The notes under the pieces were generated by a model that was not told the DNA's origin, did not search any database, and saw only the letters and a program-made list of their open reading frames with translations. The position numbers and the translations under genes were made by a program. Shown here one piece after another: positions 1-18,840 of a stretch of 57,582 bases of DNA. Within the stretch, counting starts at the first letter, position 1; each line of letters starts with the position of its first letter. The DNA lies in the NCBI GenBank assembly GCA_008704415.1, contig VXIS01000312.1:1-57582 (forward strand), given 5' to 3'. The stretch comes from Sphaerosporella brunnea (lineage: Eukaryota > Ascomycota > Pezizomycetes > Pezizales > Pyronemataceae).

Positions 1-1
1 G

Positions 2-508
2 GCTCGAGATGCATTGCTGGCAGCACGTCACCGCCAGGCAAGCATTGCTGCCAAGCGTAGGAATCCTCAGGTTCAACTTCAGGTTGGACAATGGGTGTTT
101 TACAAGAGACGTTCTCGAGGGAAGGGCAAGGTTAGGAAGCTTATGGAAGTTTGGGAAGGGCCCTACAGGATCACCAAAGTCGATGAGGATACAGGCAACT
201 GCACACTTGAACTCCCCAAGAACAAGCGTGTTTATCCCATCTTCGCCCAGGACAAACTCAAGCTCTTCCAGCGAATTTCAGACAAGACAATTCCGCCTCC
301 TCCCTCCAGCTACGATGACGAAGAAGAAGACGACCACACTCTCTACAACATCAAGGAGATTCTCGACCACAAGAAGATTAACGGTATCGATTACTGGTAT
401 ATCTCTTGGGAGAATTATGGACCTGAAAACAACTCTTGGGAACCTGATGAGAATGTACGCAACACTGGCGCAGATTCCATCCAGGAATTCTTTTCGAAGA
501 GAACATAG
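2..508 (+). CDS. Ty3/gypsy chromovirus pol, C-terminal end (integrase tail and chromodomain), 5' partial
   Basis: This is the last part of a retrotransposon polyprotein whose beginning lies outside the window. The frame is open from the first bases. It starts with the Arg/Gln-rich end of the integrase core (ARHRQASIAAKRRNP), followed by the SH3-like integrase C-terminal domain (VGQWVFYKRR ... EVWEGPYRITKV) at about residues 22-75 of the visible part. After an acidic linker (DDEEEDD) comes a chromodomain (YNIKEILDHKKINGIDYWYI, then WENYGPENNSWEP) over the last 55 residues. In chromoviruses this module directs integration to methylated-histone chromatin. The stop is followed within 150 bp by a polypurine tract and an LTR, as expected for pol. 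The visible part has no stop or frameshift, so the element could be young. The chromodomain call is firm; the exact clade is not. Confidence 0.9.
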   Translation, partial: ARDALLAARHRQASIAAKRRNPQVQLQVGQWVFYKRRSRGKGKVRKLMEVWEGPYRITKVDEDTGNCTLELPKNKRVYPIFAQDKLKLFQRISDKTIPPPPSSYDDEEEDDHTLYNIKEILDHKKINGIDYWYISWENYGPENNSWEPDENVRNTGADSIQEFFSKRT

Positions 509-652
509 GACTACACCTCCACCGCAGTCACTCTTCCTCCCGATTTTTTCTTTCCTTCTGATGATTCTTTCTGTTTCTCTCCTATGTCATCCATCGCTTC
601 TTCCGTTTTTGATTTACGTGAGTAACTGTTTCAACTGTTTTTTAAGGGGAAG

Positions 653-1164
653 TGTAAGATTATTACACTTACTATGGTTTCTTGTTTACGTATTTCCTTA
701 CTAAGCTATAAAACTATAAGGCAGTAACGCAGGTATGATAACAGCATTCTACGAGTTTCCATTACTTTCTTTACTATGTTTTGTCACCATGTTTCTAGCA
801 CTTTCTAGCCCCTTCGATGCTACGTCACTTTGGAATCTTCTAGTTTCCACAAGGCAGACTTGTAGGTCTTCTAGACCATTCTTTCCTTAGTTTCGAATTT
901 GCCACCAGATTGTTATCACATGATGTACTCAGCATCGTTGGCTATAAAAGCTACGAGCTTTTCCTACATTCATTCTTTTCTCTTCTTTCGATACGGCCTT
1001 TCGAGCAGCCCAGATTGTATCGACTATCATCAATAAATACTGAGTTGATCAGTGACCTGAGTGCGAGTATTCTCTTGGTATTTATCAAGTCAGATACACA
1101 AACGGTTCTGAGTTTATTTGCATCTGTGAAATAGCGGATCTTATAAGCTCACGAAAAGGTTACA
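653..1164 (+). repeat. 3' LTR of the Ty3/gypsy element
   Basis: It begins TGTAAG just after a purine stretch (AAGGGGAAG, about 644-652) and ends in TTACA, so its termini form a short TGTAA/TTACA inverted repeat. Inside are a TATA box (TATAAAA, 943-949) and an AATAAA signal (1032-1037), the usual U3-R order. Its position 145 bp after the pol stop fits a 3' LTR of 512 bp. The 5' LTR is outside the window, so the boundaries rest on terminal signals only. Confidence 0.75.
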
Positions 1165-1479
1165 TCTATATAGTAGTAGACGAGTCATCAGCGGTGTGGC
1201 GACGAGACCGTGTGCAGTACAGCGCCACTTAATGTAAAGTCATATGCACGTTGCAGTCCGGGCGTATGGGTGTGAAACACGGCGCAGTTGCTTTCATCCA
1301 GTGTCGGCGCTAAAGCTCTACGGCTCCGCTCCAGAATGATAGAGCTGTGTAGTCGCTTCGCTTCAAAATCCGACGGTTGCAAATTGATGGTTGATTACGA
1401 GGGGCTTTGGTCCAGTAGTTTACATTTCAAAGCAGTAGTTTACATCAGCGTGGGAGTATTTGTCGTCATTGTGGGCTGC

Positions 1480-1563
1480 AGCCTGTACAGCCGGGCGAGC
1501 TTTTTGATGCGCCCACATCCGCTCAGCGCGGCCGGTCGGGTGGGCTGGCTGTTGAAAACACTG
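1480..1563 (-). repeat. hAT-type MITE fragment, family B
   Basis: This fragment shares its sequence with 17517-17622 and, for its terminal part, with the complete 56-bp element at 22949-23004. Its terminus on the minus strand reads CAGTGTTTTCAACAGCCAGC, a YAG-type hAT end. The opposite terminus was not found. The 100 bp upstream also contain a twice-repeated CAGTAGTTTACAT. Confidence 0.5.
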
Positions 1564-1579
1564 GTAGTTAGCGGGTTGC

Positions 1580-1955
1580 AGTCGGCATCGGATGTAAGCG
1601 GTCCCGTGCGTTGACGGCCGCCGAAAGATATACCTTAACGCACGCGCCTTCGTGGCGCAATGGTTAGCTGACCTGCTTCCGCAGTCCGGACCTTAAGCTC
1701 AATGCGGCAGCCGCCGCGTTCGAGCCCGGCTGGAATTCCCTGCGGAACCAGTATTGAGGGGCCCCGTCACGTGTGTGCCGGGGTGAGCAGGGTTGTCCGA
1801 CAGCGGGATCTGCACTGATTAGTCAGGCAGAGACGCTGGTTTGTAATGCCCCGGTTACCATTCACTGCAATTACGGTCTGAGACAGGAGGCAGCGAGGCC
1901 GCAGTGCAGCTGGTAACCCCGGTAACGGGCATACATATATGTGCAACCTTTTTTT
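1580..1955 (+). mobile_element. tRNA-derived SINE candidate, copy 1
   Basis: This 376-bp unit is about 90% identical to 11228-11601. It contains a polymerase III A box (TGGCGCAATGG, 1653-1663) and a B box (GTTCGAGCC, 1718-1726) 54 bp apart, and ends in T7, a Pol III terminator. The head resembles a tRNA 5' half (TGGCGCAATGGTTAGC), but the T-arm pairs badly and no cloverleaf closes, so it is not a working tRNA gene. About 65 bp of shared sequence precede the tRNA-like part. Its T7 end lies next to the stop codon of the minus-strand LINE at 1957, which leaves a second reading: that the unit is the 3' tail of that LINE. Copy 2, which has no LINE coding sequence beside it, favours a SINE. Confidence 0.65.
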
Positions 1956-1956
1956 A

Positions 1957-3608
1957 TTAATACCGAGCCAGGAAGTCCAAGATCGTTGCGGTGCATCGCT
2001 CTTCTGCCATGATGGTTGTTATAGGGGTCGTGGTCTTTCTCCACCCGCTACCCCTCTCCCCACTACCCTTTTTCCCCCTCTTCTCGCTGGCTCGAATTGT
2101 ATTCCAAACCACGTCCGGCTGCCTGGGCCACTTGGCGCACCTTTTGAAGAGGTGCTCTCGCGTTCGCTTCGGCTTTTTGGCGCAGAAGTAGCACTTGTCG
2201 TCCGTCCATCTGTTTGTCTCTAGCAGGTATCGGGCTGTCGGTGCTTTATTGAGCCTTAGCTGGTAGTATCGCGACGCCAGCAGCTTGGGGGCCTTTGCCG
2301 CTTTGGAATCCCACGCTCTCTCGCGCTTGTAGTAGCTCTTAGACTTGCTTTGTAGCGCCAACCAGGCATTTCGATCCTGCCTCTTGGCGATTGTAACGTT
2401 CCGGCTGATGTGCGCCAGCGTTGTGACGTGAGTCTGGGCGGCTCTGTCTAGACGCCACGTTGCAGTTTCTTTGGCCACCCTGTCAGCCACTTCGTTGCCG
2501 GGGACCCAGTGATATTCCGTGGTCCAGCCCCGCTCAAGGAGGCATGTTTCGGCGGCGCGTCTGCAGACAGTCAAAAGTCCAAAAATATTAAGCGCTTAAG
2601 CGCGCGCGGTCAACCCAGCGTCCAACAATTTGGAGCGTGTTTTACAAAATTCCAAGTTTACATAATACAATGCCCTCTCCTGCGTGTGTTTACGTATACC
2701 AACAACCAGTTACCATCTTATCCTCCTGTCGCACCTCTCCCGCCACTCCACCCCGCCCCCCGCCCCCCGTCGTCCCACCGCTCCTCTCGATCCTATGTCC
2801 TCCTACAAGTCCTCCTTATCTGCCCCCGGGCGCCAACCAATTGATGCAACCTCTCAGCGAAATGAAAGCACGAGGGATTCCAGCGCAGCTGCCAGCCGGA
2901 CATCTCCTCCAGGCGCCAGTCTCCAGGAAATGCTGCGACCACAGAGAGCGCCAAAGAAAAAAATTCCGGATCGAGAATTTGCAGTACGGCCAACAGCGCC
3001 TCCATCAATCGAACCGATAATTCAAAAGACCATTAAATCCTTCGCCTCAGAGTAGCTTGTAATGCGACAAAATGGCGAGCGTTTTCCTGACCCACTGAAT
3101 GCCTTTCAGCGGCTTCAAGCATATGCCTTCTCCTGTGGTTTTGCAAGAAGAGAAGGCGTGAGGTGGACGAGCCGGAAGCAGAGGAGGAATCATGGCATGG
3201 GCGACGGACTGGGCTTACAACCAAGCTGCGCGCTGGATTTTATAAGCTGCTCAATGATGGCAAACTTGGGTCGCAAGACACATACTTCTCGGCAAAACTG
3301 TATCTACAAAATAGATTGTGGCAAAATAAATGCGCTTGTGTTCAAATAGTAGGGCATCGGGTTGAACGTGCGCGCTTGAGCGCTCAAAATTTTTGGGCTT
3401 TGGTCTGTCCGCAGACGCGTCGTGTTTCGGCGCGATCAATGCGTGGTAATAGCAAATGTCCTGGTCCAGGTTTGTCATGTTGCAAACGTTGGACAGCCGC
3501 CTGAGCGTCGGTGAACACCCGCAGTGGTAGATCCTGACTGTGATCGCACGCTGTGTGGCTCGCGCGCAAATGACGTTTGCGCAACCGTAGCTTCACCTCC
3601 TCGAACAT
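1957..3608 (-). pseudogene. LINE (non-LTR retrotransposon) ORF2 3' end: RNase H and zinc-knuckle tail, interrupted
   Basis: On the minus strand, 3608-3423 encodes the middle of an RNase H domain (RVFTDAQAAVQRL) and 2554-1957 encodes its end (WVPGNEVADRVAKE) plus a Cys/His tail (CYFCAKKPKRTREHLFKRC; C-x2-C-x9-H-x4-C). This order is typical of Tad/I-like fungal LINEs. Between them sits the 868-bp element at 2555-3422. Without it, both halves are in the same frame and share the duplicated codons at the target site (AET). The reverse transcriptase and endonuclease are absent, so the copy is 5'-truncated, near 3550. The stop codon lies only a few bases before an A7 run on the coding strand, leaving almost no 3' UTR. 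Confidence 0.85.
2555..3422. mobile_element. 868-bp inverted-repeat DNA element with 10-bp target duplication (Mutator-like, non-autonomous)
   Basis: It is flanked by TGTTTCGGCG at 2545-2554 and again at 3423-3432. Its ends form a long imperfect inverted repeat of roughly 65 bp: the left end starts GCGCGTCTGCAGACAG and the right end, read inward, starts CGACGCGTCTGCGGACAG. Both continue with a related AAAAAT ... AGCGCT ... AAGCGCGC stretch and then TCAACCC. A 9-11 bp target duplication with long inverted repeats is the usual mark of Mutator-like elements. Small plus-strand ORFs inside (for example 2684-3055, Pro/Ser-rich) resemble no transposase. It sits in the LINE RNase H domain, so it is younger than that LINE. 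Confidence 0.8.
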
Positions 3609-4746
3609 GGTTTCTCTGAACCACAGTTTACCCGACCGCGGGCGTCCAAACGGACCCTTTCAAATCGTGAGGACCCGTGAGAACCATGGTCCGCAGAATC
3701 ACGTTGTGATGCAACCAGACAGTCACCGAATCCGCAAAATCATGTTCTCGTTGCGACCACGGTCTAGCGCCCCGGATCATGATCGAAGCCGGGAACCAGA
3801 CGCACCCTAAAATTGTTTGACGAGACCAAGATTGGAAGACGTACGGGTTAAGTCCCCATTGGGCGGCTGATGCTACTGACTTAGAGTGTGTTTAATGGTG
3901 CGATTTGCTTTTTATGTATTTCTTTTGTATGGGGAGCCCCAACAGACGGGTAAGACCGTGTGGACAGGATACCAGGTTTCTTATGTCCGTCATAGGCCTT
4001 TGGCCTCACTCCGATTCGCAAGATAGGAGGCACTTGGGCTAACGTCCTCGTGTACGCTGTATGATTTAAAACAAAAACAAAAAACAAAACAAAACGAACC
4101 AAACGCACCCTTACTAGTCTATTCTCCGCAGCGGGGAGTCGTGCAGCGCTAAGAGACAAAATAACCGTACATAGAAAGGAAAACCCACAAGAAAACAGAT
4201 CGGCCATAGGAAAGAAACAAACAAAGCAAAAAACATCCCACCTAAACCTGAATCACGCATCTGTGAAGGTTGCCCCTAGCTCGGCAGAGCTGAGTCCGGA
4301 GGCAGAGTTGAGTCCGGAGGCCGAGCGTCGGGAGGCCTACGCCAGCCCTCGACCCGGCCCGGGAGCCTCAGGCTGCCGGGCTGAACTCCTCCCAGCATCG
4401 CCCGTGGGCACAGCTACAGGGAGATGATCCAGGCGGTCGTGGTGGGTAGGTAAAAGCAAAGCGAGGTGACGACGAGGTGTTGGAGGTCTGGAGGGCCTCG
4501 AGGCGCGGAAAGGGGTCCTTTTTATAGGGAGCCGGCCAAAACGAACTCCACCCGCTCCACCTCCGGCACTACAGCTGAATCCTCTGCCCTGGCCTCCCGT
4601 CCAGTCATTCGGCGCTGCTCCGACCCACTAGCTCGCAGTCTAACTGCCCATATAGTGTGCGTGATCTCCAGTGAAGCAACTGCGGCGGACATCCCTTAAA
4701 GCTTCCTGTCTGTGTATTGGTTGATGGTCCTCAATACCACCAGCTA
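3609..4746. other. No recognisable gene
   Basis: Short ORFs only. The plus-strand ORF 3577-3810 has a stretch (NGPFQIVRTREN) faintly like an integrase C-terminus, but it is too short to call. There is an A-rich AAAAC/AAAC run at about 4068-4104. Near 4290-4325 a short direct repeat, GAGTCCGGAGGC, occurs twice. The minus ORF 4207-3881 resembles nothing I recognise. Confidence 0.5.
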
Positions 4747-5004
4747 TACAACGATGTAGTTCTAATTCTTTCGAAGAAACCCACAAGCCGACGGCGGGCA
4801 TTGACTGCCCGAATTGTACCCCCGCAGTCTATTGTACCCCCGCAAACTGGCCGCCGTGGCCGTGGGATGCATCCCCATTTGCAGCGCCTTACCCTGTACG
4901 TGTGGGTTTATCTGAACCCGCTCCTGTAGTATAAATACGCGCAAATCGACCTCCACATCCACTCAACGCCTCCAGACTCAGAACGTCCACACTCCACTAT
5001 CAGC

Positions 5005-5127
5005 ATGAGCTCCGACGCGCCGGCCGCTGACATCCTTCTGGATGGCCGCAACTTCGACGAGTGGCTCCCATTCATGGAAGGCCGACTCAGGCATCGTAGA
5101 ATCTACTCGATTGCCACCCGGGCATAG
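5005..5127 (+). pseudogene. Truncated first copy of the gag-kinesin ORF
   Basis: The first 38 residues (MSSDAPAADI ... IYSIAT) match the start of the 628-codon protein, but small changes near 5120 create a stop (RA then TAG). Sequence similarity continues to 5145, where the second promoter begins. It has its own TATA box 75 bp upstream, so it could yield a short transcript or a 40-residue peptide. More probably it is a dead by-product of the tandem duplication. Confidence 0.8.
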
Positions 5128-5211
5128 ACGGAACCGAAGACGGTCTACAACGATGTAGTTCTAATTCTTTCGAAGAAGCCTACAAGACGACGGCGCACAT
5201 TGACTGCCCGG

Positions 5212-5316
5212 ATTGCACCCACGCAGTCTATGGTACCCCCGCAGTCTATTGTACTCCCACAGTCTATTGTACCCCCGCAGTCTATTGTACCCCCGCGGTC
5301 TATCGTACCCCCGCAA
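5212..5316 (+). repeat. 18-bp promoter minisatellite (unit GTACCCCCGCAGTCTATT)
   Basis: Five to six imperfect units lie about 80-190 bp upstream of the TATA box at 5395. The upstream duplicate promoter has only one to two units at 4815-4850. The pyrimidine-rich units could be binding sites whose number sets promoter strength. That is inference; the sequence shows only the copy-number difference. Confidence 0.75.
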
Positions 5317-5394
5317 ACTGGCCGCCGTGGGATGCATCCCCATTTGCAGAGCCGTACCCTGTACGTGTGGGTTTATTTGAACCCGCTCCTGTAG

Positions 5395-5402
5395 TATAAA
5401 TA
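5395..5402 (+). promoter_or_regulatory. TATA box of the gag-kinesin gene
   Basis: TATAAATA lies 83 bp before the ATG at 5485. The same element is conserved at 4930-4937 in the duplicated promoter, at nearly the same distance from its ATG. The leader between them is C-rich, with CTCAGAACGCCCA repeated in the downstream copy. Confidence 0.7.
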
Positions 5403-5484
5403 CGCCCAAATCGACCTCCACATCCACTCAACACCTACAGACTCAGAACGCCCAGACTCAGAACGCCCACACTCCAATATCAGC

Positions 5485-7371
5485 ATGAGTTCCGACGCGC
5501 CGGCCGCTGACATCCTTCTGGATGGCCGCAACTTCGACGAGTGGCTCCCATTCATGGAAGGCCGACTCAGGCATCGCCGAATCTATTCTATTGCCACCGG
5601 GGCAGAGACGGAACCAAAGACGGTCTCAAAGATCCCTAGGTTCTGTATTCGCAGCGAGCATGCAAGGACGACAATCCTTGTCTGCATGACCTCTGAAATC
5701 CTCCAGATATATCAAGGGTTTGAAAACCCAACGGAGCTCTGGGAACTATTGTGTGAGGATGCTCGTCTCAGTACGCCGCCCGCGTCTCCTGCAACGCCCG
5801 CGACCGCGCCTCCCGCAACGCCCGCGACCCCGGATCCTGCAACGCCCGCGACCCCGCCTCCTCTTGCACAATGCCATAGGCGGTTCATACTGAAGTTCCT
5901 TCGGCCCCTCGATGAAGATTGCCCCAGGGCATTAACCAAGAGTGATCCGCCCGTGAAGGATCTTTTGAAGCCGTTCGCGTTGACCCCAACGAGCGAGGTG
6001 TACACCGACATGCACAGCATGACTCGCCGATACTTCCAACACACCAACAAAGGCAAGGAGCTGGCAGCTGTCGAGTTGTTTACTGCGGAGGCAAAGCAGA
6101 GGTTTTGCGATGTTATCGGAACCTGGGACTTCACCGACGAAGTTGTCGCCGCATTCTGCCAGCGGGGCACTATTTCTGATGGCCTCCGCGAATGGTTGAT
6201 GTACATGCTTTTCAAAAGCATACGGAAAACGGTCAAGAAGAACCCGAAAGGCGCACGTCGCCTGGTGCAGTCCACCCGGTCTCCCCTTTCGTCTCCAGAG
6301 ATTGGCCGGGCGAACGATAATCATGACGACGACAACTTCAACGACGATGATGGTGGGGATGACGATCAATGGTGGGAGGTGGCCGCTCCGGCATCACCGA
6401 TCCCTGGACAACACTGGGGAGCGGAACCCCCGGAAGCACAGCGCGACTCAGAGCCACAGGCCGTCGCAGACACAGAGCCCGTCGCAGACCCAGAGCCCGA
6501 GCCTTGTCCGAACATACTGGTATTGTCAACTCATCGAAATGCCCTTTTGAAACAACGCACTGAGGATATCGGCACAAAGTATATCACGCTGCCGGGTGAT
6601 GGAGATTTCAACCACACACGCAGAGAGGCGGCTGATACCGTCACCCACTATTTCCTCGGGCTGCAGAAAGAGGGTCACGGGGGCATTTTCATCGCTGTTG
6701 GCTATTCCGGTACCGGCAAGACGTCAATTACGCGCGACACTGTGAGCTGCGCAATGGAGTCTCTTGTGATGGGAGCTGCAGCTGCGTGCGATGTAGTGAG
6801 TTACCACATACAGGTCAAGGAGATCATGGAGTCTGGCATGCGACGCCATCAAACACTTGAAAACGGACCAAAACGAAACCTCAACGCGAATCACGACATT
6901 CGAACCGTCGTCCAGGAGGACATTAAATCTGCGCTGGCAGTCCAAGGGACAGTCCTGGCTACAGCGATGAACCAACAATCATCGCGCACAAGCATTGTGT
7001 ACATGCTTACGATCAACAACTCACGATTCCTGTTCGTGGATACCATCGGAATGGAGGGAAAGGCCACTCTGGAGGATCCAACAGCAATTGGGCAGCGAGC
7101 AGTCTTGCAGCAGGCTTGTATCGGAACCAACCAATGTATTCGCATCCTCCTCCGTGGCCAATGTCTGAGCTCAAAGTATGGAAAAGGTTCCACCAGCTCC
7201 CTTGGTAGAACATTGAAAGAGCTAGTCTCGAACAATGATGGCGTGGCCGTTCTTGTAACCCTCCGCGAGGAGAGTGAAGATGAAGAAGCTATACATCAAA
7301 ACGATCACACGGTCAGAAACCTATTTGCGACGGAGCAGGGAGCGGGCAGGAACCACACGGTCAATGTTTGA
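5485..7371 (+). CDS. Gag-like / kinesin-like motor fusion protein, 628 aa
   Basis: A single uninterrupted ORF. Residues 9-95 look like the N-terminal domain of copia-type Gag (LLDGRNFDEWLPFMEGRL ... TELWELL). A Pro/Ala/Thr repeat fills 97-126, a helical region 127-260, and an acidic low-complexity linker 275-340 (NFNDDDGGDDD, EPVADPEPEP). Residues 342-597 carry the kinesin nucleotide-site motifs in order: P-loop GYSGTGKT (406-413), switch I NQQSSRTS (496-503, kinesin NxxSSRSH) and switch II VDTIGMEG (518-525, kinesin DLAGSE). The Arg of switch I and Glu of switch II that form the kinesin salt bridge are R501 and E524. The motor is about 255-285 residues, shorter than the usual 330-350, with no coiled-coil stalk. 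The gene is intronless and follows the second of two tandem promoters. It could be a domesticated retroelement gene or an undescribed transposon protein; binding to microtubules is not shown. Confidence 0.75.
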   Translation: MSSDAPAADILLDGRNFDEWLPFMEGRLRHRRIYSIATGAETEPKTVSKIPRFCIRSEHARTTILVCMTSEILQIYQGFENPTELWELLCEDARLSTPPASPATPATAPPATPATPDPATPATPPPLAQCHRRFILKFLRPLDEDCPRALTKSDPPVKDLLKPFALTPTSEVYTDMHSMTRRYFQHTNKGKELAAVELFTAEAKQRFCDVIGTWDFTDEVVAAFCQRGTISDGLREWLMYMLFKSIRKTVKKNPKGARRLVQSTRSPLSSPEIGRANDNHDDDNFNDDDGGDDDQWWEVAAPASPIPGQHWGAEPPEAQRDSEPQAVADTEPVADPEPEPCPNILVLSTHRNALLKQRTEDIGTKYITLPGDGDFNHTRREAADTVTHYFLGLQKEGHGGIFIAVGYSGTGKTSITRDTVSCAMESLVMGAAAACDVVSYHIQVKEIMESGMRRHQTLENGPKRNLNANHDIRTVVQEDIKSALAVQGTVLATAMNQQSSRTSIVYMLTINNSRFLFVDTIGMEGKATLEDPTAIGQRAVLQQACIGTNQCIRILLRGQCLSSKYGKGSTSSLGRTLKELVSNNDGVAVLVTLREESEDEEAIHQNDHTVRNLFATEQGAGRNHTVNV

Positions 7372-8578
7372 TAATTTTGTACTCTTGCGTTCCGTAGCAC
7401 TGATACCGTGATTGAGATTATATAGTGAATGTGCTCGCATGATCGTGAATACGTTTCCTGAGTCCAGGTGAAATAGCATTCTCGTTGAGGCAGGATGGTG
7501 TAATCGCATGCCAGGTAAAGAGCTGTGAATACCAGGATGCCAGTGCCTTTCCATCCTCCTTGAAAACTGGAGTGACCGGGTGGACATAAAAGCACGGCGA
7601 TCAGTCAACGCGCAACAGCGGAGGACTTCCGCTGTCATACGATCGTGACTTTGGAGACGATGGCTAGATCTAGACATAGGCAGGACACGCACAGACATAG
7701 CACACTGGTTACGGGTTCCGCAGTCGTCACTACGCCAGCAATATCTGCGCAGGACCGCAATCTGGTAGTGCTGTGCCTCCGGCGATACTACTACCCGTAT
7801 ATTACATAATGCCGGGTGTGTACCGGAGACGCCGTGTTGTTGAATTCCACTGTCAGACGAATATCATGTGTGACAATTGGACGGGGAAGTGTACCGGCCC
7901 TGAGAGGGCCGGTTACATGAGTCTCACCCCGCCCAACCCCGATCACCCCTCGTGCCCCGGTGCACCCCGCCCTGCCCCGGGCTACCCCGCCGCGCCCCGC
8001 CCGCCCGCGCCCCGTGCACAGCACTAGGCGGAGCATCCGTAAGGACGAAAGTAGCGACAGAAGCAACTACCTGAGGGCACGGTTCACAACCTCGAATCGA
8101 TTCAGTCGAAGGCGTTCCCTTTATAGCAACCAACGATTTGCAGTAAACAGGGGCCGGCGGCGTGGGCTTAGTAGCAATGAGGAACGTTGTCTGAATAGCA
8201 ACTCCCACTGGATGGAGTGGACTGCGTGACATTGGCCTTTAACACCCGCGGCTTTACAACAGCAGCACTCCCGTAATACCCGATCCAGGCCCAAGCTCAA
8301 CCAGAAAGAATCATTGAAGCACACTGCGGGGATTTTACCGACTTTATTGTCATAACTCCATGTTTCACTGCCATCGGGAAAGAACAGACTACAAGCGTCT
8401 CTTGTTGAGCCCAAAGACGTCTCATAAGCAGACCAAGATGACCACAATGGTCAAAGCAGCCAGTTACACGCTGTGGTTGATGAATCCGCTCACACCGGTG
8501 CCACCAGCGAAAAGTCCTGAGAACCGAGGGGCAATTTCAATGCACTGCCTCGAACGTCAGAGAGCCCCAAAAGAGCAC
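7372..8578. other. No recognisable gene; GC-rich CCCCG-type low complexity
   Basis: Anonymous sequence follows the gag-kinesin gene. From about 7925 to 8022 the plus strand is a CCCCG/CCCGC-rich low-complexity tract. ORFs on both strands here are by-products of that composition. Confidence 0.5.
7893..7913. repeat. Perfect 9-bp inverted repeat (hairpin)
   Basis: ACCGGCCCT and AGGGCCGGT are separated by GAG. It could form a tight GC-rich stem. No downstream T-run or coding context assigns it a role. Confidence 0.5.
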
Positions 8579-9291
8579 GATGAGTACAAGAGAGTCCGAA
8601 AAGACCCACTTTGTGGTGCTTCGTTTTGTAGGCATAATGCCCGACCCCAGCGACGAGGATTGTCCAGCGGAGTGCGTGAAGGCTTCGTCCGAGTCATCCG
8701 AAGGGAGCCCCTCACCATAAATATCCACGCAGCCTGTTTCTCCATCCCTGCAGCGGAGAGAGTACCACGAAAGTGACAGCTGAACGTTTCCCCAGCTCTT
8801 TGGCAGGTACCACCGGGGTTTGTAAACCTTGCAGTTGCACCGGAGCTCGAACGGAGCTCAAATGTTGCACCAGAAGCGGCCCCTTCACTACAACCAGCCC
8901 TACAGGCCGTTTTCCCGGTACCAGATGCAGAGATATCGTCTCACCTGGAGGATCCCTATTCCCATGATGCGATATCATTCAGATCCATTGACAACGCGTG
9001 TTCTACATACCCGGCTCTGTCTGCCCCGGTCTCCGGTATGACGTTCCCTGCGAGATCATGACCAACTCGTGGATGGCGGAGATACCACTGATCAAGACGA
9101 AAAAGGAGGACCTGCCTGCTGGCGATGACGCTGTTCGCGCTTTCGGGGCGGTGTTTGTCGCACCTGATCCTGCCGCCGATCAGAGCTCCACGATTGTGAC
9201 CTGGCAAACGGCGAACAAACCAAAACCTCGAATGATGTTCCTCAGAGATGGCAGTGACCTGGTCACATTCAATGACAGGTCGTTGCACTGA
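8579..9291 (+). pseudogene. Possible decayed gene of unknown function
   Basis: Several adjacent plus-strand segments have coding-like composition in different frames: 8579-8710 (MSTRESEKTHFVVLRFVG ...), about 8810-9056 (VPPGFVNLAVAPELERSS ... PALSAPVSG) and 8998-9291 (RYDVPCEIMTNSWMAEIPLI, then FGAVFVAPDPAADQSSTIV). A 45-bp GT-AG interval at about 8761-8805 would join a short upstream piece to the second segment in frame. I could not find consistent splice sites for the third, so it may be frameshifted. No family is recognised. The last segment runs up to the palindrome cluster at 9289. Confidence 0.35.
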
Positions 9292-9343
9292 CCGGTCATT
9301 GACCCGACCGGTCAATGAAGTGGTTGACCGGCGGTCAACCACT
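9289..9343. repeat. Cluster of three palindromes built on TGACCGG/CCGGTCA
   Basis: TGACCGGTCA (9289-9298) is a perfect 10-bp palindrome. CATTGACC/GGTCAATG (9297-9304 and 9310-9317) is an inverted repeat with a 5-bp centre. AGTGGTTGACCG/CGGTCAACCACT (9319-9330 and 9332-9343) is a 12-bp inverted repeat around one base. All share the core TGACC(G). It could be a transposon terminus, a dimeric-regulator site or a structured RNA end. Confidence 0.7.
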
Positions 9344-11227
9344 GGTTATCGGGGTTAGGCTTGAAAATTTCGCGGGGAAACCAGCGCCGCCACCGAAAAC
9401 CCGCTCCCAGTCCTGAGGCCTGCTGAGATCTGACTTGCGAGGACACCCCGTGAGACTAATTATTTATCCAAGCGGCAATGATCGTATGTACAGCGCTTTC
9501 AAACCTGGGAGTGGATGGTTGGAGACGGGTTTTCTCATTAGTTTCAATTGTACTACTACGAAAGAATCTCCGCTCTTGAAACTCTCTTCCATATTGAGGC
9601 GAGCCATTTGGAACCCTGTGGTAGGCAGAAGTAGTTTGCTGAGGTCAACTCCTTAGGAGGCCGTCGCTGTCGCTGCGCCGACGCACCCTCACCCATATAT
9701 CAGGTGATTGTGGACTGGAACATCTTGAGGTAAGGAAAGTATCAAATCGTCCGGTTGGCCGTTGGTACACCTACAGTCGTCACGGGTGCAAGCCAAGGGC
9801 GTACCCCCTACATATCGTTGCCACAACCTTACATAGCGACACCAAAATGGGGAGTTGTCCGGTGCGCCCACGACCACGAGGTGATCGACAAGGATAAGCG
9901 AAGATCTTCCTTGAAAGCAAAGTCTCGCTATTTTTAAACTAATGCAATTGCTGCATGCATAGATACACGAACCGAGAACAGGCTGCTTTACACAAGGGAT
10001 GGATCACGACGCCCAGTCAGACTGTAAAATCTGTTGACACAGTGAACATTGAGCGTGGAATTCGGTGCGGGAAGCGGTCTGCAATTGACAATGCATTCAA
10101 CGTGTCACCGCGAGCGAGCATTCCAATAATACCTACGCAGAGAGAAGTATATGTGCCCGAAGTAGTGGTTGAAACACCCGCACAAGCTGCTCAGCTGTCG
10201 TCACAGCCCTCTCTGGTACCTGTCGCGCTCTTTGCCACATCCATTGTCTGTCTCCGGCGCTGCCTATCGTTGTAGGTATCAAGCACGCAGAGGCCGGTAA
10301 AGTGCAAAAGGTGTCGGCAAAGCCTGATCGTTGGAATTCACCCTGGCGAACCTGGAGCGGCGGTGGACTTGGTCCTTCACTCTCACTGCAACATGCATAA
10401 CAGCTACTTCAATATTGATGATGATTAAAAGAACGCGTCTCTACAGATGAGAATGGAATCATGATTGCGCCTTTCTGACTAAGCAAACTGGACTGCAGCA
10501 GCGACGAAACTTGCGTATCCAAGATGCGATTGACCCGTTCCCAGTCACACACCTTATCCGGCGCGTCAGAGTTGACTTTTGCGAAAACGCTCCCTCCCTT
10601 AGAGATGACAATCTCCAATGAGTGGAGATCACATGGCGGGAACATCGGGTTGTCCAAACAATGGAGGATCATGATACCGCGAATCAACTCCAAGCTTGCA
10701 AGCCCATCCGAAGGACACCAAATTACATCCACTAAAGGGAAACTCAAGTGTAGGTTGATTTGGAATCGTGTCCTATCCCAGATGTGCTTAGTTATGTTTT
10801 ATGAAGACCCTCCGAAAGAGATACCGCTGCGGGTTGCTGAAGTATACGTCTCGGAACGGGTGCTCGACAATCAAGTGGTTTGCGGGCGGCATCATTGCGT
10901 GCTGTGCGTTGGCAATGATGAATGAAAAGACGGGGAAATAGATGCAATGGGGGGTTGAGGTAGCAACTGCGGCTGCCCACCGCCCGCCAGGCGCCGGAGC
11001 TATGTACCATTGTTTTAAACAACACAAGAACCCCGAGACGACGTCAAACTGAGTACCCCACAACCTGCAATCATTCCACCCAAAACCCACTATTAGTTAA
11101 TGATGATACAAACGCCAGATTTTTGCTAGGTGTCGTATGAACATATCCCCCAGTGAAATAAAACATAAGGTTCTTGGTAAGCGACTGCTCTGAGGTTGTA
11201 GGAGGCATATTAAAGTAAGCATATTGT
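9344..11227. other. Mostly unassigned; possible gene fragment on the minus strand at 10409-10790
   Basis: The minus-strand frame 10790-10409 is open for about 125 codons without a proper ATG. Its translation (FQINLHLSFPLVDVIW, then DWERVNRILDTQVSSLL) has the amphipathic, Leu-rich, Trp-containing look of the C-terminal part of basidiomycete F-box/leucine-rich hypothetical proteins. That is only a resemblance. Nothing else in the interval could be assigned. Confidence 0.3.
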
Positions 11228-11601
11228 AGTCAGCACCGGTGCAAGCGGTGCCGTGCCTTCACGGCAGGCGAAAATTATTACCCCGCGCACGCGCCTTCGT
11301 GGCGCAATGGTTAGCTGACCTGCTTCCGCAGTCCGGACCTTAAGCTCAATGCGGCAGCCGCCGCGTTCGAGCCCGGCTGGAATTCCCTGCGGAACCAGTA
11401 TTGAGGGGCCCCGTCACGTGTGTGCCTGGGTGAGCAGGGTTGTCCGACAGCGGGATCTGCACTGATTAGTCAGGCCGAGATGCTGGTTCGTAATGCCCCG
11501 GTTACCATTCACTGCAATTACGGTCTGAGACAGGAGGCAGCGAGACCGCAGTGGAGCTGGTGACCCCGGTAACGGGCATTCATATACGTGCATCTTTTTT
11601 T
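11228..11601 (+). mobile_element. tRNA-derived SINE candidate, copy 2
   Basis: This 374-bp copy matches 1580-1955 closely from the tRNA-like head onward; the first 65 bp are more diverged. The A box TGGCGCAATGG is at 11300-11310, the B box GTTCGAGCC at 11365-11373, and it ends in a T7 run (11595-11601). No LINE coding sequence adjoins it. I could not define clear target-site duplications. Confidence 0.65.
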
Positions 11602-12745
11602 GTTTCTTAATTATATGTATGTCAAACCTTTCAACTGGCGCGTGTTAATAAGCTACGCGTGTCAATAATCTCCAGTCAACCGCCTCTGTCATTTTCGATC
11701 GCAGGAAAGCCGACGGTGACTACAGCAGACGGCATCGCTTCGTTGCTCTGTCGAGTACGCACTTGACTGCACTATGGCAGACCGTCCAGGCCGGCCTGCA
11801 GACCGCCGCGGCCCGCGAGGAAACACGGCTTGCCAGCCGATCAGCAGCCCGCTTCACCAACACGCGGCCAAATCCCATCCGCTGGTGCACATTCTCGACT
11901 GCGCGGCGAGTTTGTGACTACGCGGCTTGCCGCGCCTTGTCCCGATGCGTGGCGCGGCACGCCGCGTAACCGTAGCTGGGGACTGTGGGAGATCAATGGT
12001 TCAAAGTGCTGGCGGCGTCCGTCGCGGTGGCTATGCAACGGTTGCACGATGCTGTTTGGCTGGGTTCTTGCCCCGGGCAGCTCAGTCGCTATCTTAAATC
12101 AATGGGGGTGGAACGCTTTGCCGCAGTGCGGAGGGATACCGTGTGGCGGTGTGCTGCGGACGTAAGTCAATACACGGTGGAGCGGATGGAAATGAGTGTT
12201 TGCAGCGGTGATCGACGTGGTGCCTGAGTCGCCGCCACCCGGCCAGTAGCGTGTCCCGACGGACGCTAGTAATCGATGTGTCGTTCGTGCGCCTGCAGCT
12301 AAATCTGGGTTACTCGCAGAAATATGCGATCCGTCGCTGGCAGAACCAGCGAACCGCACCAGAGCCGACAAACAAAAGCAGCCTGCGGTGTGCACGCCCG
12401 AGTCGGGAACCAAACTCGGGGATAGGATCCCGTGCTTCTCCGACTCATGCGTGGCGTTTTCGGAGATGTTTTACCGCGGGATCGACGGACACCAAACGTT
12501 GCCAGCATGAACTCGTTGGTTTTGATCACAACGCATCCGGCCGCTTGCGGCCACGACATAAACGGTACACTTAGACTGCCGTTGGGTCCTACAGACCCAC
12601 GTTCCCGTGTGTCTTTGCGGGAAAGGAAATTGAAAAAACTGCGAGATGACAAAAGAAACAAGGTCATCGTTACATCCTTATCTTCTCCGGCCAGTCCCCT
12701 CCGTTGGTGGTTGCCGGGAAATCCTGCACAGCCTTGGGATACCAG
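11602..12745. other. No recognisable gene
   Basis: GC-rich sequence with overlapping ORFs of up to 110-217 codons on both strands and no consistent coding frame, splice signals or known motifs. The last eight bases (GATACCAG) are the target duplication of the next element. Confidence 0.45.
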
Positions 12746-13527
12746 CAGTGATGCACACGACACCGCGAGACGAGACCGAGGATGATCGAGACACGTCGAG
12801 AACTGTCGAGACCGCTCGAGAATGGCGAGACTGAGCGAGAATGCCGGCGGCCTCGCAAGACCAGGCGAGATCCAGCGAGAATCTCTCCGGCCGCGGGATG
12901 GCTTCCAGTCTGCATCGTAAACTGGGCCGACGGATCTTGCGCGCTGGTGCACCTAGATGATGGGTGAAGAACATAACAACAATGCAATTGCAGACACTAT
13001 CCTCGTACAACAGCCATTTGGGTACCAGCCACTCGACATGGAACATTTCACCGGTCGTCCTGCACCGAATCACTATGCACTGGCAACGAGCGATTCGAAC
13101 CCAAGAACGCCCTGCCTCCACAATGCGCCCAACATGACCACCCCCTGAAGACTCTCGGGGGCCATGCGAGCTTGATAGCGTTCTTGAGCGGTCCCTGCAG
13201 CGGGGAAGAGCCGTTCCTCCGGCCCTGTGGAAGCTAAACCGCGGAGTCAGCCTCGACACAACCACAGTACCGTGAGATGACCTACGCTGGGTCGAATAAT
13301 AGTCCTTCGCCATCATTGCGCTTTGAGGAAACATGATGATGCCTCCCCAAACAACAGCGGCACCATAGCAGCCTGAACGTTGCAGAGACAACCGAGCACT
13401 CGCGAGAATGACGACACCGAACGAGAACGGTTGAGGCTGCGGCGAGACCGGCGAGACAATTCGAGCCCGCACGATTCTCACGAGACCGAGACTCTCGGCG
13501 AGAATTCTCGACTCGTGGGCAACACTG
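12746..13527. mobile_element. hAT-type non-autonomous element, 782 bp, with 8-bp target duplication
   Basis: It is flanked by GATACCAG at 12738-12745 and 13528-13535. The left end reads CAGTGATGCACACGA and the right end, read inward, CAGTGTTGCCCACGA, giving a 15-bp inverted repeat with two mismatches. An 8-bp duplication and CAGTG ends are characteristic of the hAT superfamily. The interior is rich in CGAGA/TCTCG words near both ends. It has no transposase; the long minus ORF across it (13667-12678) is judged spurious. The right terminus matches both ends of the 692-bp element at 55859-56550. Confidence 0.85.
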
Positions 13528-13910
13528 GATACCAGTCGTCTGCTACCCGGACCTTGATGGTAGTGGTAATCTCCCTCTTCCCGCTTCCGTCCTCCCGTGG
13601 GGCCGTGTGCCTTCGCCGACCGCCTTCCACGGCACGCCGTGCGCTGAGGCTCCTGCGGCCGCAACAAGCGAAGTCACCGAAAGCCTGTTTCGCGCCTCGG
13701 GAATAAGATCTCGACCTCGGGATAAAAGCCTCTTAGAAACCTGTGGGTTGTGGAGAAACAGTCGCGAGCCATCCTGGCCAGTGGCGGGAAGCGATGCTCA
13801 TTTGTGTTTCGTCAATCAACACGGTTGGCCTCACACTCTTGCACCGACTCCGCAACTGTGGCTACCGGCGAAGAGAAAACAAAGTCCAAGTCTCCATCTG
13901 ACAGGTTTGG

Positions 13911-14052
13911 TGCGAGATTCAAGTATGACTCTCTGGTAGATCCGAGTATGAACTAGTGTAGTGCTTGTTTCTGACTCTTAAGGAGCAGCAACTCGTGATT
14001 AGCTTTGTACCTTGCAATATATCTGTCCATTGCGCAGATCCTATCATCAACA
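13911..14052 (+). repeat. Copia-type LTR, solo or derivative (142 bp)
   Basis: It matches the 170-bp LTR at 27287-27456: TATGACTCTCTGGTAGATCC, the GAGTATGAAC motif, CTTAAGGAGCAGCAACTC, and the end CATCAACA. Its start (TGCGAGATTCAAG) is diverged. No primer-binding site GGTTATGAGCCC follows, so it is not the 5' LTR of an intact copy. Confidence 0.7.
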
Positions 14053-15658
14053 AGGTTCTCCACGGCGTGGGAACGCGCGGTTGACCAGGCCTCAGTCGAC
14101 GCCGTAGGGAGAGCACAATGTGCGCAGGCCGGTTCGGACACGTCAAACCGTGACGCTGGCAGCGGGGATCCAGGACGCTGCGACGCCAAATCGTCGGTGT
14201 GGGAAATAGTCATTCCACATATCGCAGCTGTCAAACACTGCAGCAGTCTGTGTGTGACGTTGCATTCGCGCAACTGCCGCGGAAGGCGGTCTTCATTTGC
14301 CGGGAATATTGTTCCCGCCACAGCTCACATTCGCCGGAGCTGTGCCGCGTACGACATGTTCCCACTATTTGTGCCTGATACCGTTTTCGCCACGATTACG
14401 ACCACCGCCAACGTGTATGCCAGGCGGACGCGACGCGAAAACCTCCAAGCTGGTGCGCGGACGGTGTTTGGCGTCGCAGTAGACCAGGCCGGAGTTTAGA
14501 TGGGGAGCGTCCTATCTAGGCGGTAAATGTACCGCCAGCAATTGCACACGACTGCCTGAATGCAGACCCTCCTATCCGCAAGTGTATAGCCCAAACTTGC
14601 TTGGAACAGCCTTCGGAGAAGAGCGCGAGACGGATATATCCATTCATGCCGCACACCCACCGCTGGGACCGCCACACCCACCGCATGGGTTGCGTTGATA
14701 TCGCCCATCAGCTAGTACGATGCGCAGCTCAGCTCTGGCGGCGAATATTGCATTACGGCATCGACACCGCGAGCACCACCAGCTACTTCATGGCCCGTGG
14801 CCACGACCACACTGGCCACATCCCAGATGGAGTGTGGTGGACCGACCCATCATCATTGCCGACAATCGGCAGCCTCCACCTGCTGCTAGCACTCAAAAAT
14901 ACAACTGCACTAGCTCCAAAACGTGATGATCGCCACCGTCATCAACCCATACGCACGGCGACCCGCCGAGCTGGCTCCTGCCGTCGATGGTTCGATGCCT
15001 TTAGACGACCGCTGGTGCTGCAGAGCCGCAGTCTCCAGCTTGGTGTCCGTGGCAAGTAAAATTGTTCGAAACTGTCACGGGAAGTTAGATTTGGGGCTTT
15101 CGCAGGCAAATCGGCATTCTGGCAGGAAACGGAGTGAGCCGGTAACACACGCGTCCTGGGTTTTCGGCAGGCACAATCGCAACGCCGCAGCGCCACCAGC
15201 TCTATATTTCTGATTGAAACTGTCGATGGCGTCAACAGCTCATGTCGGTCCAACAGGTCCTCCCGCGTTATTGCTTTCGTTGTGGATCGTCGCGCGGTTG
15301 TGACATCGCCAATCGGCAATAAATGCGGCCACGAGCGACGGAGAGCATGCGCGTCACCCACACCCACCGTCGCGAGATATATTCTCCCGCTGGAGTTGCG
15401 ACGTAGAGGCCATGCAAGTGATATGGATGACCATCAGCAGTGGCGATAGGAATGAGGAACGCGGTTGAAAAACAACAGCAGCGGCTCGCATCCAATATGC
15501 CATCATCTGAGATTTCCGACCTTCGGGAGAGGATGGTGGTAGTGGTTGTGACGGTGGAAGTTGTGATTTTGGCGTTGTTCAATCACTTCCCAACACTCCC
15601 AGCCGCTCGTCTCCCACATAACAAACTCGTCCCTGGCATCATGCACCTCATTCGCTCG
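14053..15658. other. Unassigned 1.6-kb segment between two related LTRs
   Basis: It lies between LTR copies 13911-14052 and 15659-15941 in the same orientation, so it could be the inside of a heavily modified element. However, I see no gag or pol motifs, primer-binding site or polypurine tract. The longest plus ORF, 14601-15059, has some coding-like composition (DGVWWTDPSSLPTIGSLHLL) and no known motif. Confidence 0.4.
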
Positions 15659-15941
15659 TGTCGAGGCATGGAGTATGACTCCCTAGTAGATCCGAGTATG
15701 AACTGGTGCAGTGCTCGTTTCTGCCTCAAGGGAGCACTTAGCTGTGTACCTGTAGGGTTCGGATCGAGGGTTCAGTGCACGACAGTGAGGCAAGAAGAGG
15801 ATATAAGGTGCAGGGGCGGTAGCTAGCTTCCTTTCTTCCTTTCTTCTCCACTAAACCTCCCACCTCTTGTCCTACAGTACCTTGCAATTGACACTGCTAC
15901 CGACGTTCTTCAAGTCGACTGCGCAAATCCTATCATCAACC
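15659..15941 (+). repeat. Copia-type LTR, long form with internal TATA segment (283 bp)
   Basis: The outer parts match the 170-bp LTR at 27287 (TGTCGAGGCATGGAGTATGA ... GATCCGAGTATGAAC ... GTACCTTGCAAT ... GCGCAAATCCTATCATCAAC). A further stretch of about 125 bp, absent from the short LTRs, lies between GTGTACC and GTACCTTGC. It holds a TATA box and a CT-rich tract. Either the short LTRs are deletion forms or this one gained an insertion. It ends 24 bp before the ATG of the polyQ gene. Confidence 0.7.
15802..15807 (+). promoter_or_regulatory. LTR-borne TATA box upstream of the polyQ gene
   Basis: TATAAG lies inside the long LTR, about 160 bp before the ATG at 15965. A CT-rich stretch (TTCCTTTCTTCCTTTCTTC) follows about 25-45 bp downstream and resembles a fungal initiator region. 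This suggests transcription of the polyQ gene starts within the LTR; that is inferred. Confidence 0.5.
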
Positions 15942-15964
15942 GCTCGCACACCGACACCTACACC

Positions 15965-16744
15965 ATGAACCTAGCCGAACTTTACGCCAAGTACGGGCTC
16001 CCGGCGCCACGCACCACCGACCAGAAGACCCACATCCTCATCGCGCAGTTCATCTGCGACAACGGATGGTACACTGCGTACCACCCCCGCAAGAACCAGG
16101 CTGTGCCGCAGTGGGAGGCGGTCCTCACGGAGGCCTTCAACCACGTAAAAATCTTCAAGAGGTTCCCGCTGCTCTATAGGTCGGGTGTGCACGCTGTGAC
16201 CAAGGACAACCACCTTTACACCTTCGGCACTTCGATGGTTGGGCTCGGCATGGTCAACGTTCGGAAACACGGACTTCCGCAGGGACCCCCATCCCCGCTC
16301 AACCTGGCGATTGTTCTGGTCCTACCTCTGGCCCAGCAGCCGCAGCAACAGCAGCAGCAATTGCAGCACCAACAGCCGCAGCAACAGCACCAGCAATGGC
16401 AGCAGCAGGAGGATGCTCGCTGGGCTGCACAGCACCAGTGGCAGCGTGACCACGAGGCTCGCGAGAAGATCATCGAGGACCAGCTGAAGGCGCTCCCTGG
16501 CAAGATTAACGACATCTTGGACGAGAGGCTGCGGGCAGTTCTGGGCAGACGTACAGAGAACGAAGACCCCTCCCCGCACAGAGTGTCGCCTGCTCCGCCC
16601 TGCTCGGGTGCCGCGTCGCCCGCCCCCGCCTCCGACTCCCGCAAGCGCCGTGCGACAGTGGCCGCCTCGCCGGGTGCTGTTGCAGCAACAGAGACGCAGA
16701 TTCAACAAGAACTGCAATTGGCGAAGAGAATCAGATCCAACTAG
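15965..16744 (+). CDS. PolyQ-containing protein of unknown function, 259 aa, multicopy
   Basis: A complete intronless ORF from ATG to TAG. Residues 1-110 form a globular-looking region (MNLAELYAKYGLPAPRTTDQ ... NGWYTAYHPRKNQAVPQWEA). Residues 124-149 are glutamine-rich, followed by a charged helical stretch (about 150-195) that could form a coiled coil. A Pro/Ser/Ala-rich tail carries basic patches (SRKRR at 225-229, AKRIRSN at the end) that could be nuclear signals. No known domain is recognised. Its C-terminal codons and the 330 bp after the stop recur, diverged, on the minus strand at 30836-31510, so the gene is part of a dispersed repeat. It begins 24 bp after an LTR that probably provides its promoter. 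It could be a gene carried by an unclassified element. Confidence 0.7.
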   Translation: MNLAELYAKYGLPAPRTTDQKTHILIAQFICDNGWYTAYHPRKNQAVPQWEAVLTEAFNHVKIFKRFPLLYRSGVHAVTKDNHLYTFGTSMVGLGMVNVRKHGLPQGPPSPLNLAIVLVLPLAQQPQQQQQQLQHQQPQQQHQQWQQQEDARWAAQHQWQRDHEAREKIIEDQLKALPGKINDILDERLRAVLGRRTENEDPSPHRVSPAPPCSGAASPAPASDSRKRRATVAASPGAVAATETQIQQELQLAKRIRSN

Positions 16745-17072
16745 CGGATATTGAAAAACACGGCCCTTTTTTTTTCAAAACTTTAGGTACGTAAGCATTT
16801 CATCTGATTTTTTACCTCCTGATCTTAAAATGCATGCTAAACTCCGCCCAGAATTTCTACACTGTGTTTCTCTGTGGCGAGAATGGGAAAAGTGGTCTGC
16901 GGGTTATTGATTTGTTAACTTTATTGCCTGTAACAAGTGGATTTGTTGGCGTTCGTTTCATAGTTGTCAATAGAACGTCAATCCCAATGACTGTGAGCTC
17001 AATTCACGGTGTTTTGCTGATACACTGTTGCCATTTCTTTGAAAACACGCGTCCAAACCAGTTGCCTTGAAC
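16745..17072 (+). repeat. 3' flank shared with the minus-strand copy at 30836-31510
   Basis: Directly after the polyQ stop, CTAGCGGATATTG, TTAGGTACGTAAGCATTTCA, ATTGATTTGT and CGCGTCCAAACCAGTTGC recur in the same order in the reverse complement of 30836-31380. Similarity ends abruptly after CCAGTTGC-TTGAA in both copies, which looks like a real element boundary. Confidence 0.75.
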
Positions 17073-17516
17073 CTAACCTGCTGCGCGGTCGGTATCGCCG
17101 CTGGCCCGAGTTTGACGCGTCAGGCGCGTATCCAAGTGGTTTCAAACAGTTGAAACCCTTCGCGCACAGTACCAGTAGTTGTTGCAAGCCGTGGGTGTTG
17201 ACACCGCACACCAAACGAATGGCACATCGTTCTCATCAGAGTCAATTCTGCGCAGTCAGGCCGACGAAGCCTAACTTGTTACCTGCCACAACAGCGCGAG
17301 CGAGACCACCGGTCCGGTCACGCGGCAATTTCCTGGTTGTCGCACCAATCGCGATGCACGACCAGACCCGGCCGTGTTGTGGTGTCTACGACAGAGCCCT
17401 TGAGATACTACAATGCGCCCTGCGTGCATATACCCATCCTGCCCTACGCTAAGCTTCATCACCGCCAGTCTACACCAGAAGCAGTGGAGCACAGGAGAAA
17501 GCGGTGTCAACCCCAG

Positions 17517-17622
17517 CAGCCGGGCGGGCTTTTTGATCAGCCCAAACAGCCAGCCGGGCTGTTCGATCAGCCCACATCCGCCCAACGACGCCGGCCGAGC
17601 GGGCTGGCTGTTGAGAACACTG
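17517..17622 (-). repeat. hAT-type MITE fragment, family B
   Basis: Read on the minus strand it starts CAGTGTTCTCAACAGCCAGC and contains two GATCAAAAAGCCC/GATCGAACAGCCC-like units. It is related to 1480-1563 and 22949-23004. Only one terminus was found. Confidence 0.5.
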
Positions 17623-18840
17623 GCCACTACTGTGTAGGTGTACCGTGCTGGAGATGTATATGACACGCAAAAGTTCACCCAGAAAGTGTACTAAGGTCAT
17701 AGGAGAGTGCAGAAATCATGACCACTTTCTGTCTCAATGCGCTATCATTCTCAGCTTGCAAGTCAGGGGCCAGTTCATGAGATTTCGTGCAATCGAACTC
17801 GGAGGTTTCTACTCCTGTAAACTGACTTGCTTCCTTAAGAGCGGGTAGTGAATAGGTGACTTATTGGGGCCACGGTGTAAGGCTTGCTGCATCAGAGTAG
17901 AAAGGTCGGATAGCTTCATGGCATTTATCGGTGCAACTGAAGAACCGATGAAACAGCCACGTGCGTGCATATCCAGTTGAGAAGGTTTCAGGTTGGCCCT
18001 GGCGCTGGCGATCTGCTACGTGAGCAGGGCGGCCAATAGACCGGCAAGTCCGGCTTTCGGTGAGGTCTGAACCTGTTTGAATTAAACGGGCTTTTCAAAA
18101 CGAGTCCCGTTTGGACCAGGCATCTGGGACCGAGAGCCAGGTGCCCACGGGCGCCGGATGGGCTGCGTGACATGCAGGCTCCCACCGGGCCCGCCAGGCA
18201 CCGGAACTATCCCCAGTTGGTGTGGCGTTTTACGGTGGCGTTTACCATTCTGGAGTCAGGCCGTGGAGGGCTGCTCAGTTATCCCTGTATATATATAGAG
18301 CAAAGTGGATGGCGCAGCACGGTGGCTCAACACGGAAAACTTATCCTACCAGAGACTGAGTGATTAGCAGTGATTGTGCGGCGCGTTGTGGAGCAGAGCC
18401 GTGGAGGAGCTTGAGCGACAATACTGCGGAGCGGCCACGCTGCTGTACACGTTGCTAGATTTGTCGATGGTTGTGTAATGGAATGGAATTGTATTTATCC
18501 GTGCCGGTACTCGCGATGAAGTCGGATGGTCTTCCCACCTCGACCCCAACCCACTACCTCCTCTGATTACTTTACTGCGCGGTGTTCCACACACATACGC
18601 CCTGTGTGCAACGTACATACGACTTTAACTTGTAAAATGGCCCCGCTTTTCCTTTCTTGCACATACTATAGTATAACACGGTGGATGAAGCTACCCTCAC
18701 AGAAACGCACGCTCCGCACTACAATCTGCTCCGAATGCGGGCCGCCACCAACAACAGGACCTTCAACCATCAGAGGACAACCTGTTTTCTTGGGGCAATG
18801 CTCTTATACGAGGAGCATCTTGAGGGAGCATTATCTGGAG
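17623..18840. other. No recognisable gene; contains a family A hAT end
   Basis: The only supported object is the repeat at 18024-18165. A TATATATATAG tract at about 18288-18300 could be a promoter, but no credible ORF follows it. Confidence 0.4.
18024..18165 (-). repeat. hAT-type element fragment, family A (reverse orientation)
   Basis: It starts CAGGGCGGCCAATAGACCGG on the plus strand, a family A terminus. It continues with sequence matching, in reverse, the internal part of 51650-51792 and 23390-23530 (GTCTCGAT..AAAAAGCC, AACGGG, AAAAGCCCGTTT). The other end is missing. Confidence 0.5.

Follow-up and report, generated by a model that had tools for sequence, protein, structure and literature searches.

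Host genes derived from Gag are well known, as are kinesins, but a gene that joins the two did not turn up in our searches of proteins and papers. Domesticated Gag genes and Gag-derived restriction factors of the Fv1, Arc and Ty1 p22 type resemble the gene described below in having a Gag-like domain under apparent purifying selection; to our knowledge, none of them carries a kinesin-like domain. The Gag proteins of copia-type retroelements resemble it along the Gag N-terminal region, with the difference that our protein continues into a middle domain and a kinesin-like domain in place of pol. Kinesin-1, as encoded by the same host, shares the P-loop and both switch motifs, in the same order. 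It differs from our protein in having Ser-His after the NxxSSR motif, where ours has Thr-Ser, in its longer inter-motif spacing, in a recognizable YRxSKLT-type motif, and in the absence of preceding Gag-like and middle domains. The preliminary description of this locus remarked that kinesins are not known as partners of Gag domains, and no Gag–kinesin fusion from another species was found in word-based protein searches or was apparent by title among open-licence papers.

The host, Sphaerosporella brunnea, is an ectomycorrhizal cup fungus of the Pezizales with a published assembly of 51.6 Mb in 872 contigs, as given in the genome report (PMC6908789); it is not a mushroom, as had been presumed at first. 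We analyzed one stretch of 57,582 nucleotides, hereafter the window, which is the entire contig C238 of the 640 contigs (50.6 Mb) that were searched.

Layout of the open reading frame and its Gag-like N-terminus

The window holds an intact, intron-free ATG-to-stop open reading frame (ORF) in a single exon (Table 1). The stop-to-stop frame comprises 658 codons and is far longer than the longest frames in 20 base-shuffled windows (179–274 codons), which bears out the original observation of one intact ORF. A second intact copy, with an identical layout and no break, lies near 218 kb on contig C223; it encodes 597 amino acids and corresponds to the protein annotated as "hypothetical protein FN846DRAFT_998377" of S. 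brunnea (P0001).

Table 1. Features of the chimeric locus, in positions of the window
Feature	Residues	Positions	Strand	Remarks
Partial tandem duplicate		4657..5145	+	Repeats the upstream region, with TATAAATA at 4930, plus ~50 initial codons from the ATG at 5005; closed by a TAG
TATAAATA box (TATA box)		5395..5402	+	Putative promoter, 83–90 bases 5′ of ATG; sequence common to several copies
ORF, Gag-like/middle/kinesin-like chimera	1–628	5485..7371	+	628 aa; second intact copy on C223
Copia-Gag-like domain	10–96	5512..5772	+	Pfam, genome search, pairwise match to C128 frame
Pro/Ala/Thr-rich linker	97–131	5773..5877	+	Composition
Middle domain	132–275	5878..6309	+	Without Pfam match; conserved between copies
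Acidic linker	276–340	6310..6504	+	Composition
Kinesin-related domain	341–628	6505..7368	+	Homology supported solely from P-loop to switch I
P-loop GYSGTGKT	406–413	6700..6723	+	Motif
Switch I-like NQQSSR	496–501	6970..6987	+	Motif and alignment
Switch II-like DTIGME	519–524	7039..7056	+	Motif and order; alignment past switch I not significant

For residues 1–130, the copia Gag family PF14223 (Retrotran_gag_2) was the sole Pfam family within E 10, at 12.9 bits and E 0.074. P0001 reached 16.1 bits (E 0.0077) and a broken family piece near 169 kb on C223 14.1 bits (E 0.033), all short of the 27-bit cut-off, and the piece on C14 gave no match. When the genome was searched with P0001, the best match outside the family was a frame on contig C128 (E 0.0032), followed by three stretches at E 0.15–1.6. 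This frame contains Gag and Pol_BBD domains, with a PF14223 match of its own at E 3.2e-11. The Gag-like N-terminus aligns with it at 28% identity over 88 columns, and the phmmer score of 22.4 bits compares with at most 6.0 bits among 1000 shuffles. The copia-Gag-like character proposed for the N-terminus is thus clear in comparison with a copia Gag frame from the same genome, but weak by Pfam, where it stays under the cut-off.

A profile of the Gag-like part (A5) searched against the PDB returned 20 rows; none was a Gag, and nearly all were chains of antibodies or nanobodies. By pattern search, both intact copies lack a D[ST]G protease motif as well as a CCHC zinc knuckle, the latter being absent from some copia Gags too. 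Two further copia-Gag-like frames occur in the window, at 26101–26559 (+) and 34114–35037 (−), with PF14223 E-values of 4.6e-5 and 9.7e-4, respectively, both under the cut-off. The middle domain matched no Pfam family at E ≤ 10. An AlphaFold2 model of residues 1–275, computed with P0001 and a second family protein (P0002, see below), had a mean pLDDT of 33.7 and was unusable.

Copies, selection and genomic surroundings

A search of the genome with the ORF yielded 21 stretches, which by our grouping represent 11 places: the ORF of the window, the tandem piece beside it, the two sites on C223 (the intact copy and the piece near 169 kb), C479, C605, C14, C67, C77 near 26–31 kb, C77 near 72 kb, and C440 near 18 kb. 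A further piece, near 5 kb on C440 and inside an inverted duplicate of the 18-kb piece, makes up a 12th place. Two of the 12 places hold intact copies, and the remaining ~10 are broken copies or fragments. The broken copy on C479 covers residues 2–560, with stops and breaks. The old copy on C14 shows 30% identity in the Gag-like part and 38% in the middle part; these are followed by two stretches that, in a search of 1500 bases, matched the kinesin-like part, one at 33.9% over 62 columns (E 2e-5) and the other at 44.7% over 38 (E 4e-5). The Gag-like/middle/kinesin-like layout is recognizable in both of these broken copies and, since it is seen in the old C14 copy, predates the split of these copies.

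Whether queried with the entire ORF, with the motor region or with a six-row alignment, the protein database yielded no relatives outside S. brunnea; the searches returned one, one and two matches, respectively, all from this species. One protein annotated as hypothetical, P0002 (154 amino acids), is a piece of the family. Scoring in the whole-ORF and six-row searches was confined to the 7994 and 7995 candidates, respectively, with the most shared words, and as all these searches rest on shared five-residue words they may miss distant relatives. PHROGs gave no match.

Nei–Gojobori (NG86) estimates of dN/dS between the two intact copies, a single pair, were 0.37 for the Gag-like part (96 codons; bootstrap 0.14–0.95), 0.31 for the middle domain (144 codons; 0.13–0.60) and 0.40 for the kinesin-like part (273 codons; 0.26–0.60). 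Across all 588 compared codons, dN/dS was 0.38 by NG86 and 0.45 by YN00, and the Pro/Ala/Thr linker gave a YN00 value of 2.75 over 33 codons. The comparison of dN/dS across copies that had been suggested for this locus therefore comes out below one in each of the three parts, and both the Gag-like and the kinesin-like pieces seem, from the one pair compared, to be kept by purifying selection. The middle domain has the lowest point estimate among the three and retains its 38% identity even to the oldest copy, that on C14. The RIP index TpA/ApT was 0.36–0.85 in the copies and 0.67 in the whole window, with no clear sign of RIP.

The ORF might instead be the protein of, or a passenger in, a non-autonomous mobile element, the Gag-like part of which would package its own RNA into copia-made particles while the family spreads and decays. 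Occurrence at 12 places, mostly broken and many beside other repeats, would fit such an element, as would the lack of introns and the sharp end of the match between the window and C223 at 7325, just 5′ of the stop codon. We nevertheless consider this account rather doubtful. No LTRs or terminal inverted repeats were recognized in window positions 1–20000, where a search with seed 12 and length 20 gave neither LTR-like direct repeats nor inverted repeats, and the frames scanned near the ORF, which took in part of the short frames, contained no copia pol domain and, of pol pieces in general, just one LINE-type zf-RVT match. Moreover, the 5′ limits of the shared sequence vary among copies, and upstream sequence including the TATA box is common to them. 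This shared upstream sequence suggests that the copies arose by duplication of DNA and not via mRNA. Of the three origins first offered for the locus (a captured motor in a retroelement, a domesticated gene, or an undescribed transposon protein), a domesticated or chimeric gene fits best.

Several other elements lie in these surroundings. A ~310-base repeat is present in two 94%-alike copies on the plus strand, at ~1640–1952 and ~11292–11600, ~3.6 kb 5′ and 3.9 kb 3′ of the ORF. By eye, it looks like a tRNA-derived SINE, with A- and B-box-like words and a terminal T-run. It also occurs in the C77 and C440 loci. ARAGORN and Rfam reported nothing at the two window copies, nor anywhere else in the window. 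Adjoining the first SINE-like copy, at 1960–2574 (−), is a LINE remnant with a zf-RVT frame (E 4.4e-5, under the cut-off), and at 15827–16741 (+) there is a weak match to the mitochondrial ribosomal protein mL59 (E 0.0029, under the cut-off). Contig C440 (24.5 kb) contains a 7.3-kb inverted duplication with 91.7% identity (L052 1959–9000 versus L051 8947–1726), which holds two copies of a broken piece of the chimera gene. On contigs C346 and C437, myosin matches occur in mirrored pairs of equal score, which are either inverted duplications or palindromic assembly artefacts.

The kinesin-related domain and the AAA/STAND alternative

The P-loop, switch I (NxxSSR) and switch II (DxxGxE) motifs stand in the correct kinesin order, and both intact copies have the same residues there. 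The salt-bridge pair R501 and E524, whose retention had been pointed out, is present in both. When the 215 residues after the P-loop were shuffled, N..SSR followed 5–60 residues on by D..G.E appeared in 52 of 1,000,000 sequences. The motifs had been called correct in order and spacing; the order holds, but the spacing is shorter than in the host's kinesins, some of which were assembled by us from joined exons. From P-loop to switch I there are 90 residues, compared to 112–123 in seven of the eight measurable host kinesins and 190 in the eighth; from switch I to switch II there are 23, compared to 28–56 in ten host kinesins. A pattern search found no YRxSKLT-type microtubule-binding motif.

The domain matched the host's kinesin-1 (L022), the best PDB match of which is the kinesin heavy chain 1goj. 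HHalign aligned the two over 114 columns from P-loop to switch I at 30% identity, with a score of 46.75 and a probability of 87%; none of 1000 shuffles that kept the P-loop did as well (maximum 33.7), and single rows gave probabilities of 78.5% for the window and 80.1% for P0001. We also aligned a five-row profile of the domain (A4) to ten host kinesins, obtained from 17 PF00225 genome stretches after exon joining, and found a score of 39.9 with 65% probability over 136 columns. That score was reached by none of 500 column shuffles and none of 500 P-loop-keeping shuffles, although the best of the latter came to 39.7. Against single host kinesins, no shuffle out of 60 reached the score for L022, L027, L028 and L031 and one did for L024 and L030, while L026, L025, L029 and L023 gave no signal (9–37 of 60). 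With an HMM of the ten kinesins, the P0001 domain scored 13.7 bits, above all 10,000 shuffles, and the window domain 10.8 bits, equalled or beaten by seven of 10,000.

Residues 436–532 had Kinesin as their sole Pfam match, at E 0.052 and model positions 187–214, and the P0001 piece matched it at E 0.036. In the PDB, the piece from before the P-loop to switch II matched kinesins in five of five cases for the window and three of six for P0001, for which the two best were UvrA. However, no piece reached the PF00225 cut-off of 29.3 bits (at most 13.5 bits, E 0.036–0.76). Past switch I the score is no better than chance (54 of 300 shuffles as good), and past switch II likewise (197 of 300); residues 524–628 matched two unrelated proteins in the PDB. 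PDB searches with the A4 profile (E ≤ 10) and with the whole ORF (E ≤ 1) turned up no kinesins. The kinesin-like domain first described is therefore supported from P-loop to switch I, with nothing significant after it, and it is to that extent that we regard the C-terminal part as kinesin-related.

An ordinary AAA/STAND-type P-loop ATPase, in which the kinesin-like switch words would be coincidental, is an unlikely alternative for this part. AAA_7 has the best Pfam E-value for the entire domain (0.002), and AAA_16 and nSTAND_NTPase5 match as well, with all three below their cut-offs (18.1 of 25.8 bits, 15.5 of 32.6 and 13.6 of 34, respectively). For the P-loop half alone (residues 342–478), the top PDB match was a 4309-residue AAA+ protein (E 0.11), and UvrA was matched as well. 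Furthermore, an AAA_7 search of the genome lists the ORF (E 0.0755), whereas the ORF is not among the 17 matches of the PF00225 search. We discount the AAA_7 signal because it spans just the P-loop and ~60 residues behind it, because nine of the genome's 19 AAA_7 matches rank above the ORF, and because AAA_7 matches occur in 14 of 14 control genomes. As non-kinesin controls we used two AAA modules, presumed dynein AAA3 and presumed midasin, and two myosin pieces, all named by us after the family that fetched them. The AAA modules add nothing past the P-loop (18 and seven of 60 shuffles as good), and the myosin pieces gave 33 and seven of 60, so that none of the four controls compares with the kinesin-1 result. 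The block without the P-loop (residues 479–532) matched only kinesins in the PDB, eight of eight at E ≤ 10 (E 0.29–1.4), six of them constructs of one protein, KIF13B; for the comparable P0001 piece, eight of 11 matches were kinesins.

AlphaFold2, given residues 340–628 together with P0001, produced an unusable model (mean pLDDT 33.6, pTM 0.37). Foldseek with this model gave 799 matches, none at E ≤ 0.001 and no kinesin among the best 50, a result that is meaningless at such confidence. A search of a viral collection for kinesins with which to deepen the alignment confirmed one of nine stretches, the long frame of which showed no kinesin motif by eye, and a further search there confirmed none of 13. 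An "FxFDxVF"-like stretch seen in the C14 copy was unsupported on follow-up.

Possible functions of the chimera

With moderate confidence, we propose that the ORF belongs to a lineage-specific S. brunnea family in which a copia-Gag-like and a middle domain precede a shortened, kinesin-derived NTPase domain, and that the protein probably acts as an assembling nucleotide switch. As a Gag/kinesin fusion, it is backed by the two intact copies, the older broken ones and support beyond motifs for each half, with the reservation that the kinesin homology is partial. In outline, the protein would have a head that assembles or binds Gag, followed by the conserved middle, an acidic tether and, last, the nucleotide switch. 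The Gag-like part may assemble with itself or attach to Gag proteins made by living copia elements, and the kinesin-like part may bind ATP through its P-loop, switch I and switch II and thereby alter the assembly's shape or partners. As no microtubule-binding motif is recognizable, the protein is probably such a switch and not a walking motor.

The likeliest role, which we put forward tentatively and by analogy, is that of a host protein that disturbs copia particles in the manner of other restriction factors derived from Gag. We prefer a role against copia because the genome contains 119 copia-Gag stretches (PF14223, E ≤ 1). Less likely than any of the foregoing is that Gag-like particles are opened, remodelled or moved through ATP use by the kinesin-like part, which would make the protein a capsid protein with its own engine. 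If true, this would pair a virus-like shell with a cytoskeletal-type NTPase, a combination that we did not find described.

That the protein is a working microtubule motor carrying Gag particles, for example towards the nucleus as the preliminary description had imagined, is highly improbable: neither intact copy has lost the P-loop, the switch I arginine or the switch II glutamate, and capsids of the Caenorhabditis elegans retrotransposon Cer1 are reported to associate with microtubules (PMC3315495), but nothing was found that supports such transport, given the missing YRxSKLT-type motif, the short motif spacing and a match no better than chance past switch I.

If expressed, the proposed nucleotide switch would make it possible to test directly whether the capsid domain of a retroelement can couple to a cytoskeletal-type NTPase. 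The chimera would also illustrate the degree to which a kinesin motor domain may erode while selection, as it seems, retains the domain.
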